NCBI GenBank assembly: GCA_012729785.1
Contig: JAAYCL010000001.1
Span: forward strand, 1 to 64,000
Source: Chlamydiota bacterium
GTDB lineage: Bacteria > Auribacterota > Tritonobacteria > UBA1439
Reading direction: 5' to 3'
DNA: 64,000 nucleotides
The translations under genes and the position numbers were made by a program. How positions within the stretch are numbered: position 1 is the stretch's first letter; each line of letters begins with the position of its first letter. Of the stretch, positions 41,622 to 49,280 are shown piece after piece. The notes beneath the pieces were generated by a model that was not told where the DNA came from, did no database searches, and saw only the letters and a list, made by a program, of their open reading frames with translations.

Positions 41622-41738
41622 CCCGGCGGAGCCGCCGCGCGCGCCCTTTCAGTGACGGTCGTTTCGTCTCCGCGGAGTTTCCTTCCCGGTTCGCCGCCGA
41701 ATAACCGGCACCCGGTTTGCACTTTTGCAAACGGTTCC

Positions 41739-41767
41739 TTGACTATATCAATTTTGCGTGCTACGTT
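41739..41767 (+). promoter_or_regulatory. Promoter of the pilus MshEN-pilB-pilC genes
   Basis: TTGACT (41739-41744), 17-base spacer, TACGTT (41762-41767), in a local AT-rich patch (41700-41770) that stands out from this GC-rich genome. Predicted start near 41774, 47 bases before the GTG at 41821. Confidence 0.65.
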
Positions 41768-41820: not shown

Positions 41821-42438
41821 GTGTCCGCTTTCAAGAAGGTCACCAAGAAGCTGGTCGGGGAGCTTATGATTGACAGCGGCGTCATCACCCGCGCCCAGCT
41901 CAACCAGGCCCTCGAACGCAAGAAAGAGACCGGCAAGCTCCTGGGCGAATCGCTCGTGGAGCTAGGATTCGCGAGCGAGCAGGACGTCGTCGGCGTCGTC
42001 GCGGCGCAGTACCGGATCCCGTACCTGCCCCTGAAGAACCACGACGTGGACAAGGAGCTCCTCAAGACGCTCCCGCGGGAACTCGTCTTCAGGCACCGCT
42101 GCTTCCCCGTGGACAGGATCGGCTCCGTCACCACCGTCGCGATGGAGAACCCGCTGGACGACAGGGCGGTCGGGGAGATCCAGAAGGCCGTCGGCGGCAG
42201 GGTGCTCTGCTTCGTCTCCACGCCGAGCGAGATACTCTCCGCCATAGAACAGCACTACGGCGCCGTCGAGGCGCACGCGTTGCGCGCCGCCGCGTCCGCC
42301 CCCCAACCCCCTCCCGAGACCCGGCAGGCGCCCGCCTCCGCCGGGGCGGACGAGGGCGCGTTCCTGGGGGAGGAACCGGACGTCGAGGAAGGCATCAAGG
42401 TCTTCCAGATCGAGGAAGACGCCCTCCCGGAGGAATGA
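41821..42438 (+). CDS. Stand-alone MshEN (GspE N-terminal) domain protein
   Basis: 205 aa, GTG start behind GGGCGGGGAGGG. Residues 10-150 form the T2SSE_N/MshEN domain: LGESLVELGFASEQDVVGVVAAQYRIPYLPL and AMENPLDDRAVGEIQKAVG-type repeats, as in the N-terminus of PilB. No ATPase follows; residues 150-205 are Pro/Ala/Glu-rich and unstructured. MshEN domains bind c-di-GMP in some PilB/MshE proteins. It overlaps pilB as ATGA, so the two are made together. Could be a regulator of pilus assembly by c-di-GMP (inference). Confidence 0.75.
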   Translation: MSAFKKVTKKLVGELMIDSGVITRAQLNQALERKKETGKLLGESLVELGFASEQDVVGVVAAQYRIPYLPLKNHDVDKELLKTLPRELVFRHRCFPVDRIGSVTTVAMENPLDDRAVGEIQKAVGGRVLCFVSTPSEILSAIEQHYGAVEAHALRAAASAPQPPPETRQAPASAGADEGAFLGEEPDVEEGIKVFQIEEDALPEE

Positions 42439-44153
42439 CCGTGTCGATGCCGCTTCTGGATGAACTGCCCGAGATCCTGCTCCAGGACGGCTGCGTCGGC
42501 CGCGAGGAGATGGAGAAGGCCGTCGAGGAGCAGAAGCTCACGGGGGGGCGGATCGACCAGATACTGGTCAAGAACGGCTACGTCACGGAAAAGACGCTGA
42601 TGGCCTCCGTGGCGGCGCACCTGAACATCCCCCCCGTCGACCTTTCCAAGTTCAGGCCCGCCCCCGACGTCCTCGAGCTGGTCTCCCGGCAGGTCGCCAG
42701 CTTCTACAAGGTGATCCCGCTCGCCAAGATCGGCAACACCCTCACCTTGGCGATGGTCGATCCGCTGAACGTGCTCGCGCTCGACGACATCCGCCTCATC
42801 GCGGGGCTCGACATCCAGCCCGCCATCTGCGCGGGGAAGGAGTTCCGCGACGCGCTCGAGAATTTCTACTCCTCCAAGGCGAACATGGAGCACCTCCTCA
42901 AGGACGCCGTCGGCGTCGGCGTCGAGGCGAAGAAGAAGGAGTCCGAGCAGGACATCAACCTGGACGAGCTCGTCGAGCAGACCGGCCAGGTCTCCATCAT
43001 CAAGATCGTGAACATGATGCTGGTGCAGGCGATCAAGGAGCGGGCGAGCGACATCCATATCGAGCCGTTCGAGAAGGAGATGAAGCTCCGCTACCGGGTC
43101 GACGGCGTCCTCCACGAGAGCGTCGCCCCCCCCAAGCATATGCAGAACGCCGTCACCTCCCGCATCAAGATCATGTCCAACCTCGACATCGCTGAGCGCC
43201 GCCTGCCGCAGGACGGGCGTTTCAGGATCAAGGTCCACGGGCGCGAGATCGACTTCCGCGTCTCCTGCCTCCCCACGAGCTTCGGCGAGAAGGTGGTGCT
43301 CCGCGTGCTCGACAAGAGCGGGCTCGACAACATCGACCTGGCGAAACTCGGCTTCCACAAGGAGGGGGCCGAGGCGTTCATAGGGGCGATCTCGTCCCCG
43401 TACGGGATGATCCTCATCACCGGCCCGACCGGCAGCGGGAAGTCGACCACCCTCTACGCCGCCCTCAAGGTCATCAACAAGCCCGAGGTGAACGTCATCA
43501 CGGTCGAGGACCCGGTCGAGTACCAGATGCAGGGAATCAACCAGGTCTCGGTCCGCTCCGACATCGGCCTCACCTTCGCCGCGGGCCTCCGGTCGATCCT
43601 CCGGCAGGACCCCGACGTGATCATGATCGGGGAGATCCGGGACCTCGAGACCGCGGATATCGCGGTCAAGTCCGCCCTCACCGGGCACCTTGTCCTCTCG
43701 ACGCTCCACACCAACGACGCCGCGAGCGCCATCACCCGCCTCGACGACATGGGCATCGAGCCGTTCCTCATCTCCTCCTCGACCCTCCTCGTCGCCGCGC
43801 AGCGCCTCGTCCGGCGCATCTGCAAGAAGTGCAAGAAGGAGATCGACGTCCCCGAGGACGCCCTCCGCCTGGCCCAGATGAGCTACCCGAAGGGCCAGAA
43901 GCCCCTGGTCTGGCGCGGGACCGGCTGCGGCGCGTGCAACAACACCGGCTACTCGGGCCGGATGGCGCTCATCGAGGTGATCGCCATCGACGACGAGGTC
44001 CGCGGACAGATCATGAAGCGCGCGACCGGGCGCGAGATCAAGCTCGCCGCGATGCGGCGGGGGATGAAGACGCTCAGGATGGTCGGCCTCGACCGGGTGC
44101 GGGAGGGGGAGACCACCATCGAGGAGGTGCTGCGCGTCACCGCGCCCGACTGA
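42435..44153 (+). CDS. pilB: PilB, type IV pilus assembly ATPase
   Basis: 572 aa. MshEN domain (about 10-155) then the GspE ATPase: Walker A G330-PTGSGKS-337, Asp box and DPDVIMIGEIRD, His box LVLSTLHTNDA, and tetracysteine zinc site C463-C466 and C498-C501. It powers pilus extension. ATG overlaps the preceding stop. Retraction ATPase PilT, often next to pilB, is absent from the window. The spacer to pilC contains the dispersed 21-bp repeat and a 20-bp palindrome. Confidence 0.95.
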   Translation: MTVSMPLLDELPEILLQDGCVGREEMEKAVEEQKLTGGRIDQILVKNGYVTEKTLMASVAAHLNIPPVDLSKFRPAPDVLELVSRQVASFYKVIPLAKIGNTLTLAMVDPLNVLALDDIRLIAGLDIQPAICAGKEFRDALENFYSSKANMEHLLKDAVGVGVEAKKKESEQDINLDELVEQTGQVSIIKIVNMMLVQAIKERASDIHIEPFEKEMKLRYRVDGVLHESVAPPKHMQNAVTSRIKIMSNLDIAERRLPQDGRFRIKVHGREIDFRVSCLPTSFGEKVVLRVLDKSGLDNIDLAKLGFHKEGAEAFIGAISSPYGMILITGPTGSGKSTTLYAALKVINKPEVNVITVEDPVEYQMQGINQVSVRSDIGLTFAAGLRSILRQDPDVIMIGEIRDLETADIAVKSALTGHLVLSTLHTNDAASAITRLDDMGIEPFLISSSTLLVAAQRLVRRICKKCKKEIDVPEDALRLAQMSYPKGQKPLVWRGTGCGACNNTGYSGRMALIEVIAIDDEVRGQIMKRATGREIKLAAMRRGMKTLRMVGLDRVREGETTIEEVLRVTAPD

Positions 44154-44213: not shown

Positions 44214-44248
44214 CGCCGCGGTGACGGGTTCGCACGGAGGTGTGGCGC

Positions 44249-45454
44249 ATGGTCAACTTCAAATACACGGCCAAGGATCTGCAGGGGCGCGACGTCGCCG
44301 CGACGATGACCGCCGAGAGCGAGGGGGAGGTCATCGGCAAGCTCCGCAAGAGCGGCCTCATCCCGGTCAAGATCGTCCGGGACGAGAAGGCGGGGCGGAA
44401 GCGGTTCCAGAAGAAGGTGAAGGCGGAGGCGGTCGTGATCTTCGCCCGCCAGCTCGCCACGATGATCGAGGCGGGGCTCCCCCTCGTCCAGGGGCTCGAG
44501 GCGCTCGAGCAGCAGCAGGTCCAGTACCCGGTCTTCGCCGCCGTCATCAAGACGGTCAAGGAGGACGTCGAGGGGGGGAAGAGCCTCTCGGACGCGCTGG
44601 AGCGGCACCCGCGGGCCTTCGGCGCGCTGGTCGTGAACCTGGTCCGCGCGGGGGAGAACAGCGGCACCCTCGCCGAGATCATGGACCGTATCGCCAAGTA
44701 CCTCGAATCGGCCCGCGCGCTCCAGAAGAAGGTGAAATCCGCGATGATGTACCCGCTCGTCGTCTCGGTGATGGCGCTCATCATCACGATCGTGCTGCTC
44801 GTCAAGGTGATCCCGGTCTTCGGCACCATCTTCTCGAGCTTCGGCGCCGAACTGCCGCTCCCGACGCAGATGCTGCTCACGTTCAGCGACTACCTGCGCC
44901 GGTACATCCTTCTCGCCCTTGCCGGGATCGTCGGGATCGTCTTCGCGTTCCGCGCCTTCTACAAGACCGACAAGGGGCGTCTCCGCGTTGACGCCCTCGT
45001 CCTCCGGCTGCCGGTCTTCGGCGACCTGATCCACAAGGTGGTCCTCTCCCGCTTCGCCCGGACGCTCAGCACCCTGGTGCGGAGCGGCGTCCCGATCCTG
45101 CGCTCGCTCGACATCGTCGCCAAGACCGCCGGCAACTACGCGGTGGAGCTCGCCGTCGGCAAGGCGGCGCAGAAGATCAAGGAGGGGGAGAGCATCGCGG
45201 GGCCGCTCGAGGAGACCAAGATGTTCACGCCGATGGTGGTGCGGATGATCTCGGTGGGGGAGAAGACCGGCAAGGTGGACACGATGCTCGAGAAGATCGC
45301 GGACTTCTTCGACGACCAGGTCCAGACCACCCTCGCCGGCTTCACCGCCCTCATCGAGCCGCTCCTGATCGCCTTCCTCGGCATCGTGGTCGGGACGATC
45401 GTGATCTGCATGTTCCTCCCGATCCTCAGGCTCTCCTCGGTCGTCAAGATCTGA
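44249..45454 (+). CDS. pilC: PilC, type IV pilus inner-membrane platform protein
   Basis: 401 aa from ATG 44249 (GGAGG at 44236-44240); GTG 44240 would overlap that site. Two T2SSF domains (about 65-190 and 270-395) with conserved FARQLATMIEAGLPLVQGL and FARTLSTLVRSGVPILRSLD and three TM segments. It anchors the PilB motor and the pilin in the inner membrane. Follows pilB. A GC-rich hairpin follows its stop. Confidence 0.93.
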   Translation: MVNFKYTAKDLQGRDVAATMTAESEGEVIGKLRKSGLIPVKIVRDEKAGRKRFQKKVKAEAVVIFARQLATMIEAGLPLVQGLEALEQQQVQYPVFAAVIKTVKEDVEGGKSLSDALERHPRAFGALVVNLVRAGENSGTLAEIMDRIAKYLESARALQKKVKSAMMYPLVVSVMALIITIVLLVKVIPVFGTIFSSFGAELPLPTQMLLTFSDYLRRYILLALAGIVGIVFAFRAFYKTDKGRLRVDALVLRLPVFGDLIHKVVLSRFARTLSTLVRSGVPILRSLDIVAKTAGNYAVELAVGKAAQKIKEGESIAGPLEETKMFTPMVVRMISVGEKTGKVDTMLEKIADFFDDQVQTTLAGFTALIEPLLIAFLGIVVGTIVICMFLPILRLSSVVKI

Positions 45455-45503: not shown

Positions 45504-47192
45504 ATGAAGCTCGCCCGGGAACGGACGGAGTTGCTGAGCCGCGTCAAATGGTTCATGCTGCTCCGGCTGATCCTGATATCGGTCCTGATGCCGGTCAGCG
45601 CCTGGGTCTTCGGGCAGGGGGCCACCCCCTTCTTCTTCGTCATCGGGGTGCTCTACTGCGCCACGCTCCTCTACATCGTCCTTTTGAAGACGCCGGTGCG
45701 GCTCAGGACGCAGGCGTACGGGCAGTTCCTCTTCGACGCCGCGGTCGTGACCGCGTTGCTGAGCTTCACCGGGGGGATCAACAGCAACTTCGTGTTGCTC
45801 TACGTGCTGGTGATCGTCTTCGCGAGCCTCATCCTCGGGAGACAGGCGGGGATGGTCCTCGCGGTCAGCTCCAGCGGCTTCTACGCCGTCCTCGCCCTCC
45901 TGGAGTGCTGCAGCCTTCTCCCCCCCGCCCTGGACCCTGCGCGCGGCCTTACCTGCGACCCGGTCTACGCGGCCTACCTGGTGCTGGTGCGCGCCACCAT
46001 CTTCTGCATCCTCGGCTACTTCGCGGATTACCTGGTGAACAGCCTGTACGCGAACCGGATCGAGATCGAGGATCTGAAGAAGCTCAACGAGCGGATCCTC
46101 ACCCAGATCAACGGCGGTCTCATCACCACCGACGCCTCCGGCAGGATCATCTTCGCCAACGAGGGCGCCGAGGAGGTCCTGGGCTACACGCGCGCCGAGA
46201 TGATCGGGAAGAGCTGGCACGCCTTCCTGGGCCGCACGGTCGGCGATTTCGACGACCGCTGGCTGGTCGAGGAGGCGAGGTCGTTCGCGCGCTGCGAGAT
46301 ATGGGTGGCGCGCAAGAACGGCACGGAGATCCCGGTCGGCTTCACCGTGTCGAGCCTCGTGGACGGGGACGGGACGCCGCTCGGGCTGCTCATCCTCTTC
46401 AGGGACCTGACGCAGATGCGCCAGCTGGAGGAACGGATGCGCCGGGCCGACCGCCTCTCCGCCGCCGGGGCCATCCTCGCCGGGGTCGCCCACGAGGTCC
46501 GCACGCCGCTCACCGCCATCCGCGGGGCGGTGGAGGTGCTCAAGGAGAGCGGGTTCGGAGACGGCGAGGGCGCCGCGATGGCGGAGATCATCATCAAGGA
46601 GTCGGACCGGCTCAACAGGATCATCAGCGATTTCCTGGTCTCCGGGGGCCCGGGCCGCGACTCCCGCGCCGTGGAGGATCTCGGCGCCATCGTCGACGAG
46701 GTGATCCGTGTCGAGAGGCAGACGCGGCAGGGGGGCGAGGGGCTCCGCGTCGTCAGGGACCGCGCCGAGAAGTCGGTGCGGGCGCGCGTCGACAGCGCGC
46801 AGATGAAGCAGGTCTTCATCAACCTCATCGACAACGCCCTCGACGCGGCGTCGCCGCGGGGCGAGGTGACCGTCGGCGTCGAGCGGGTTCCCGCGCGCCC
46901 CGGGGAGACACCCGCCGCCCGGGTGCGGGTGGAGAATACGGGGCCCGGGATGAACGCCGAGGGGATGGCGCGCCTGTTCGAGCCGTTCTATTCGACGAAG
47001 CGGAGCGGCACCGGCATGGGGCTGTTCATCGCGGAACGGATCGTCCGCGGCCACGGGGGCCGGCTCGACGCCGAGAGCCGCGAGGGGCGGACGGTCTTCA
47101 CGGTCACGCTCCCGTGCGAGGAGGATGCGGGCGCGGGCGCGCGAGGGAGCGCGGGGCCGCCCCCCGCGGCTCCGCCGAATTCGGGCGGATGA
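45504..47192 (+). CDS. pilS: PilS-like membrane sensor histidine kinase
   Basis: 562 aa. Six hydrophobic segments (about 15-185), a PAS domain (about 195-310), HisKA with phospho-acceptor H330 in AGVAHEVRTPL, and HATPase_c: N-box QVFINLIDNALDA, G1 NTGPGM, F-box FEPFYSTK, G2 GTGMGLFI. Layout and position next to a PilR-type regulator identify it as PilS; in Pseudomonas PilS senses pilin level in the membrane. The C-terminus is a Pro/Ala tail. Confidence 0.88.
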   Translation: MKLARERTELLSRVKWFMLLRLILISVLMPVSAWVFGQGATPFFFVIGVLYCATLLYIVLLKTPVRLRTQAYGQFLFDAAVVTALLSFTGGINSNFVLLYVLVIVFASLILGRQAGMVLAVSSSGFYAVLALLECCSLLPPALDPARGLTCDPVYAAYLVLVRATIFCILGYFADYLVNSLYANRIEIEDLKKLNERILTQINGGLITTDASGRIIFANEGAEEVLGYTRAEMIGKSWHAFLGRTVGDFDDRWLVEEARSFARCEIWVARKNGTEIPVGFTVSSLVDGDGTPLGLLILFRDLTQMRQLEERMRRADRLSAAGAILAGVAHEVRTPLTAIRGAVEVLKESGFGDGEGAAMAEIIIKESDRLNRIISDFLVSGGPGRDSRAVEDLGAIVDEVIRVERQTRQGGEGLRVVRDRAEKSVRARVDSAQMKQVFINLIDNALDAASPRGEVTVGVERVPARPGETPAARVRVENTGPGMNAEGMARLFEPFYSTKRSGTGMGLFIAERIVRGHGGRLDAESREGRTVFTVTLPCEEDAGAGARGSAGPPPAAPPNSGG

Positions 47193-47264
47193 AGGCGGGG
47201 GCCCGCGCGGCCCGCCGTTTGAATCCCGTGAACCGCGCGCGTGGCGGGGCGAGGTGACGAACCG

Positions 47265-48656
<1,392 letters not shown>

Positions 48657-48668
48657 CGATGAACTGGT

Positions 48669-48708
48669 ATTTTGCGATTTTGCGAATTCAGCACATCAGT
48701 TTTCGCAT
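48669..48708. promoter_or_regulatory. Candidate PilR upstream activating sites
   Basis: ATTTTGCG occurs twice in tandem (48669-48676, 48677-48684), with a related TTTTCGCAT at 48700-48708. It lies about 105-140 bases upstream of the sigma54 -24 box, the normal distance for an activator site. The Pseudomonas PilR site (TGTC-based) is not present, so this is a hypothesis. The patch is AT-rich, unlike the surrounding DNA. Confidence 0.4.
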
Positions 48709-48810
48709 CTATGCGGAATCCGGGGCGGATGGAATGAGAATTAACCTCGATTCGGATCCTAACTAGTTGCGCTGCAGTGCAATGATGCATATGACATTAT
48801 ATATTTCAGA

Positions 48811-48826
48811 TGGAACGGATATTGCT
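48811..48826 (+). promoter_or_regulatory. Sigma54 (-24/-12) promoter of pilA
   Basis: TGGAAC (48811-48816), 5 bases, TTGCT (48822-48826): the GG and GC dinucleotides have the right 10-base gap between them. One mismatch to TGGCAC. Expected start of transcription is about 48837, which gives a leader of about 40 bases ending in AAAGGAGGTG (48859-48868) before ATG 48876. Confidence 0.75.
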
Positions 48827-48875
48827 TATCCAGGAAGTCGAACAGAGGAAACCTTCTGAAAGGAGGTGCGGTGAG

Positions 48876-49214
48876 ATGAGAAAGAGCGGGTTTACACTGG
48901 TGGAGATCATGATCGTAGTCGCGATCATCGGTCTCCTCGCTGCCATCGCCATCCCGAACTTCATTCGGGCGCGCGAGCAGACGCAGAAGAACTCCTGCCT
49001 CAACAACCTGCGCCAGTTCGACTCGGCGGTGCAGCAGTACGCGCTCGAGGCGGGTCTGGGGACCGGCGTCGACGTGACTGCGGCTCTCGACCCCTACCTC
49101 ACGAACCTGACGACGTCTTCCGCTTGTCCGGGCGGCGGCACCTACACGATCGGCGCCACGGGGACCGCGTCGAGCTGCAGCACGCACGGGTCGGTGTCCA
49201 CGTTCAACGAGTGA
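48876..49214 (+). CDS. pilA: PilA-like type IV pilin or pseudopilin
   Basis: 112 aa from ATG 48876. Prepilin leader MRKSG cleaved before F6, then FTLVE10IMIVVAIIGLLAAIAIPNF, the pilin helix with Glu5 of the mature form. Mature C-terminal domain is short with a Cys pair region (CPGGGTYTIGATG, then SCSTHG) typical of GspG-like short pilins of Omnitrophota/Verrucomicrobia type. An upstream in-frame ATG at 48810 overlaps the promoter and is not the start. Strong ribosome binding site. A terminator follows at once, so pilA is a single-gene unit. Confidence 0.9.
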   Translation: MRKSGFTLVEIMIVVAIIGLLAAIAIPNFIRAREQTQKNSCLNNLRQFDSAVQQYALEAGLGTGVDVTAALDPYLTNLTTSSACPGGGTYTIGATGTASSCSTHGSVSTFNE

Positions 49215-49241
49215 GGCCGCGCAGCGCGTAACGCAACAAGG

Positions 49242-49280
49242 AACGGGGCGGTATCCGGACGGATGCCGCCCCGTTTCGTT
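49242..49280 (+). terminator. Intrinsic terminator of pilA
   Basis: AACGGGGCGGTATCCG (49242-49257) pairs with CGGATGCCGCCCCGTT (49260-49275) as a 16-bp stem with one G-U pair, followed by TCGTT. It ends the pilA transcript 28 bases after the stop codon and 114 bases before the 3' end of the convergent gene. Confidence 0.75.

Follow-up and report, generated by a model that had tools for sequence, protein, structure and literature searches.

Enteric NtrC acts at glnA and glnL through paired palindromes before a sigma-54 promoter and through a repressing site at the sigma-70 promoter of its own operon. Control of a pilin gene by a regulator of this type has been described for the PilS–PilR systems of Pseudomonas aeruginosa and Geobacter sulfurreducens, in which a kinase with six transmembrane segments (6-TM), the NtrC-type regulator PilR, an RpoN-dependent pilin promoter and the position of pilR next to pilA are found together (PMC6058289, PMC2725144). 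The signature of the Pseudomonas PilR site is TGT-N11-AGA with GTCT (PMC6058289). Two sigma-54 activators of Vibrio, LuxO at qrr and SypG at syp, have described sites. LuxO reads TTGCA-N3-TGCAA (PMC10328515) and has the helix VSPSTIYRKL, as read from mutant names (PMC11407668), and the SypG site is TTCTCANNNTGMDWN, with the half-site TTCTCA (PMC10162802). Literature searches made here found no model of pilus control for the phylum Auribacterota.

Here we describe a PilSR–pilA locus of this phylum in the window, the whole stretch of 64,000 nucleotides that was analysed, and compare it with related genomes. Judged by architecture and gene order, the locus is a member of the PilSR systems, sharing the features listed above with those of P. 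aeruginosa and G. sulfurreducens, whereas its operator is a different one. The P. aeruginosa site is TGT-N11-AGA with GTCT and the site here is a paired TTYGCR-N4-YGCRAA palindrome, the letters being compared with the P. aeruginosa signature only. The operator here also marks the pilB-C-S-R operon, another difference from the two described systems.

Gene order and the sigma-54 promoter of pilA

The features of the locus are collected in Table 1. PilS matched the six-transmembrane PilS domain PF25323 as well as HisKA and HATPase, and PilR, encoded among pilus genes, combines a receiver, an AAA+ domain and a Fis-type HTH.

Table 1. Features of the pilus locus in the window
Feature	Position	Strand	Description
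Operator of the pilB-C-S-R operon	41716..41731	+	TTTGCA-CTTT-TGCAAA, perfect palindrome
Sigma-70-like promoter of the operon	41739..41767	+	TTGACT, 17-bp spacer, extended -10 TGC-TACGTT
MshEN-like gene	41821..42438	+	first in operon; stand-alone domain of c-di-GMP-binding type
pilB	42435..44153	+	pilus extension ATPase
pilC	44240..45454	+	inner-membrane platform protein
pilS	45504..47192	+	sensor kinase: PilS-like 6-TM domain, PAS, HisKA, HATPase
pilR	47241..48656	+	response regulator, AAA+ with GAFTGA, Fis-type HTH, recognition helix GIDLATLYRKI; ATG at 47265 a possible alternative start
pilA operator site 1	48671..48686	+	TTTGCG-ATTT-TGCGAA, exact TTYGCR-N4-YGCRAA
pilA operator site 2	48702..48717	+	TTCGCA-TCTA-TGCGGA, one mismatch
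pilA sigma-54 promoter (-24/-12)	48811..48826	+	TGGAACG-GATA-TTGCT (TGGAACGGATATTGCT)
Ribosome binding site	48860..48868	+	AAGGAGGTG, before pilA
pilA	48876..49214	+	type IV pilin, N-methylation motif, 112 aa, ATG at 48876
Hairpin 3' of pilA	49240..49277	+	possible terminator, weak T run

The gap from pilR up to the pilA promoter has 42.6% GC against 70.5% for the window, which bears out an earlier note on this DNA that had described an AT-rich island before pilA. The sigma-54 promoter named in that note was recovered at the same place. TGGAACGGATATTGCT matches 11 of 12 consensus positions, with the GG and GC elements at the fixed -24/-12 spacing, and the ribosome binding site, pilA and the GAFTGA motif in the upstream PilR are likewise as the note had them. 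The note had held that a genome lacking rpoN would speak against this promoter; rpoN is present on contig C15 (PF04552, E 1.3e-62). The promoter is accompanied by a GAFTGA activator, PilR, and by paired operators upstream. In nine related genomes, ten further pilA promoters carry -24/-12 elements 55–78 bases 5' of the start codon; these agree with the consensus at 8 to 11 of 12 positions, the weakest being those of G003 and G005. Across the 2.59-Mb genome the pattern TGGNACRNNNNTTGCW occurs four times and its reversed control three times; it is therefore not enriched genome-wide, and position is what counts. From the usual distance to the -24/-12 elements, the pilA transcript would start near 48837.

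A sigma-70 promoter for pilA was also considered and none was found. No IHF site was present in the loop between promoter and operators in the window's genome, and no consistent one in its relatives. This genome has three other strong -24/-12 matches. Two of them (C4:17623-17638, L034, and C13:9131-9146, L035) are each preceded, about 600 bases upstream and on the same strand, by a gene for a sigma-54 activator, an arrangement like that of pilR–pilA. In four relatives from families f13, f16 and f17 (G022, G039, G038 and G036; L047, L049, L051 and L053) an ORF of about 44–47 aa stands between the -24/-12 elements and pilA. It has one likely membrane segment, preceded by a shared pattern roughly of the form [IL]-x-[FLV]-x-E, and may encode a small protein of the pilus whose gene is transcribed together with pilA.

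Paired palindromes upstream of pilA

The earlier note had read a tandem ATTTTGCG and a separate motif, TTTTCGCAT, in the gap. The letters are real, but they were divided wrongly: a single palindrome is present twice, and ATTTTGCGATTTTGCG (48669-48684) and TTTTCGCAT (about 48700-48708) belong to its two copies. The direct repeat was rejected as an operator. TTTTGCG occurs in the window at chance (3 matches, 2.5 expected), and before pilA in the relatives, where the note had suggested looking for TTTTGCG, it is the palindrome and not the repeat that is kept.

The palindrome is 16 bp long, TTYGCR-N4-YGCRAA. Its two copies in the window are 31 bp apart from centre to centre, and the centre of site 2 is 101 bp upstream of the -24 T. 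In the eight pilA upstream regions of family f1 (G000, the window's genome, to G005) and family f2 (G006, which contributes the region G006b), nine exact sites were found against 0.007 in shuffles, and 17 exact or one-mismatch sites against 0.22. Only a spacer of 4 occurs when spacers 0 to 9 are scanned. A pair 30–32 bp apart is seen in seven of the eight regions and is common to six related genomes; in G006b one copy passes the pattern, and a freer scan puts a weak partner 32 bp away. The freer scan, which leaves positions 3 and 4 unconstrained and accepts pair spacings of 18 to 34, recovered the same pairs. None of 200 shuffles was as good in 13 of the 18 promoters tested, and the same held for G036; the pair was weaker in G006b, G038 and G039, and no pair was found before pilA in G022.

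The pairs are spaced by 30–32 bp (about three turns) or 19–21 bp (about two turns), and these whole turns place both operator sites on the same face of the DNA. The second site lies 100–115 bp before the -24 element in f1, f2, f6, f10 and f15. Even in G002, where pilA and pilR are on separate contigs (38 and 50 kb), the operators are still there.

Neither TGT-N11-AGA nor GTCT is present on either strand of 48657-48811, between pilR and the -24 element. The operator is thus unlike the Pseudomonas PilR site, as the earlier note had thought; the signature is diagnostic of the Pseudomonas operator and not of PilSR systems as a family. The layout resembles that of NtrC, with a pair at the sigma-54 promoter and a site at the sigma-70 promoter of the regulator's own operon, but the half-sites differ, and pilA is not preceded by the NtrC-type sequence GCACY-N5-RGTGC. 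In other phyla the loci of the best PilR-like hits yielded no paired sites, and few of those loci combine a pilin gene with -24/-12 elements.

The operator of the pilB-C-S-R operon

In the window's genome an exact copy of the palindrome is seen at pilA, at the start of the pilB-C-S-R operon and at one G+C-rich site on C5, three places in all. The second place goes beyond what the earlier note saw. A wider regulon was considered for this genome and rejected, the C5 site being the only further exact one. Sites that are exact or have one mismatch are few in the six f1/f2 relatives as well, and pilA and the start of the pilB operon are again among their positions; a two-promoter regulon is predicted in the seven genomes. 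In every one of these a sigma-70-like -35 follows the operon site after 6–7 bp (in the window the promoter begins 7 bp past the operator), and by the scoring used the promoter has a 17-bp spacer and an extended -10 in five of them.

This arrangement probably reflects autoregulation at a sigma-70 promoter. Activators with GAFTGA would not be expected to open a promoter of this kind; repression is therefore the preferred sign, and we infer that negative feedback on the operon is the likelier. PilR might instead read the pilA sites and activate the sigma-70 promoter directly from the operon site, and the fixed gap of 6–7 bp to the -35 in seven genomes, which suggests contact with RNA polymerase, would suit direct activation. 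We nevertheless regard it as rather unlikely, since GAFTGA activators are built for the sigma-54 polymerase and NtrC represses at the sigma-70 promoters of its own operon.

G002 has four further exact operators (C64:11053, C78:2053, C154:16807 and C215:34834); the surroundings of three of them, on C64, C78 and C215, were inspected, and no recognised pilus gene is nearby. G022 has two TTTGCA-type sites, separated by 42 bp (L190:3413-3470), before the sigma-70-like promoter of a g40779-like gene and the pil operon. They lie in the gap common to the divergent pilA, not before the pilA sigma-54 promoter.

Operator letters and the PilR recognition helix

The 6-4-6 architecture of the operator is kept across the families, and the inner letters of the half-site change, to TTCTCA in f6, f10 and f15 and to TTAACA in f8. 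The TTTGCA class (f1, f2, f13, f16 and f17) has the PilR helix [IV]D[LP]ATLYRK, with the variant IDLVTLYRK in G004, the TTCTCA class has IS[LV][AP]SLYRK and the TTAACA class has ITLMSLYRK. Half-site class and helix class match in nine of nine families; these families are related, and a PilR tree with the HTH left out leaves their branching order open. The agreement in f13 rests on G036, as G022 has no pair at pilA, and the helix of G005 was not read. The operator class of G019 was set before the helix of its true PilR was known. A paralogue had been retrieved initially, and the fragment of the true PilR then gave ISVPSLYRK, as expected. In the window's genome the helix occurs in PilR alone among 14 full sigma-54 activators.

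PilR is very probably the reader of the palindromes, because the same sites recur in relatives and at the pil operon and change in step with the PilR helix. This agreement also supports the suggestion of the earlier note that PilR is the likely activator of pilA. Another transcription factor overseeing the pilus genes could read the palindromes while PilR reads a different, unseen site, and a site abutting a sigma-70 promoter is indeed more usual for other regulator classes. Such a factor is improbable, however, in view of the tracking of the PilR helix by the half-site letters in nine families and the absence of this helix from every other activator of the genome. Paired sites about 100 bp out at whole-turn spacing are typical of sigma-54 activators, and the operator letters match the sites of LuxO and SypG, which likewise argues for PilR. 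That an AT-rich gap produced motif and promoter by chance has next to no probability: within the window alone neither TTTTGCG nor two-mismatch -24/-12 matches exceed expectation, but place, spacing and sequence are conserved in relatives, and the count of exact sites against shuffles refutes chance.

LuxO and SypG are sigma-54 activators with the same half-site letters and with two sites upstream of a sigma-54 promoter, and the LuxO helix VSPSTIYRKL resembles IDLATLYRKI of PilR. In LuxO binding was lost on the S423A substitution, which corresponds in position to the A of D-L-A-T, whereas S421A and T424A kept activity (PMC11407668). The Vibrio systems differ in having a spacer of 3 instead of 4 and other targets; no TTGCA-N3-TGCAA site with a spacer of 3 was found, every exact site having a spacer of 4. 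PilR is not itself a LuxO, scoring 361.8 bits against an equivalog cut-off of 800. The match to the half-sites of both Vibrio activators suggests that the code may hold beyond the phylum.

A proposed PilS–PilR switch at two promoters

We favour, with a probability of about 0.84, a PilS–PilR switch in which PilR on the paired palindromes drives pilA through sigma-54 and also binds a site at its own operon. What computation established is the promoter and the operators, together with the spacing and conservation of these elements and the match of the operator letters to the PilR helix. From these features we infer PilR binding, looping, transcript starts and feedback. Phosphorylated PilR would bind as dimers at the two 16-bp palindromes, on the same face and three turns apart. 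Positioned about 100 bp upstream of the sigma-54 promoter, it would form an AAA+ ring, loop to RNA polymerase–sigma-54 and open the pilA promoter. At the operon PilR would bind the single palindrome abutting the sigma-70 promoter of pilB, pilC, pilS and pilR and would thereby control the levels of both itself and the pilus motor, with negative feedback the likelier outcome.

We lean slightly towards a broader formulation, in which one operator serves two kinds of promoter. Pairs would act at pilA with sigma-54, and a single site 6–7 bp from the -35 would directly tune the sigma-70 promoter of the motor genes and pilR, while the half-site code (TTxyCA) would change from family to family along with two or three helix residues. 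If such switching is true, the families offer a natural series from which DNA recognition by these activators could be decoded. The matched sets of operator and helix (TTTGCA, TTCTCA and TTAACA) could reveal the residues by which Fis-type helices choose bases, and the palindrome provides a sharp, testable operator for the phylum.

The MshEN-like gene adjoins pilB in the relatives too, and its product may tie c-di-GMP to pilus assembly.
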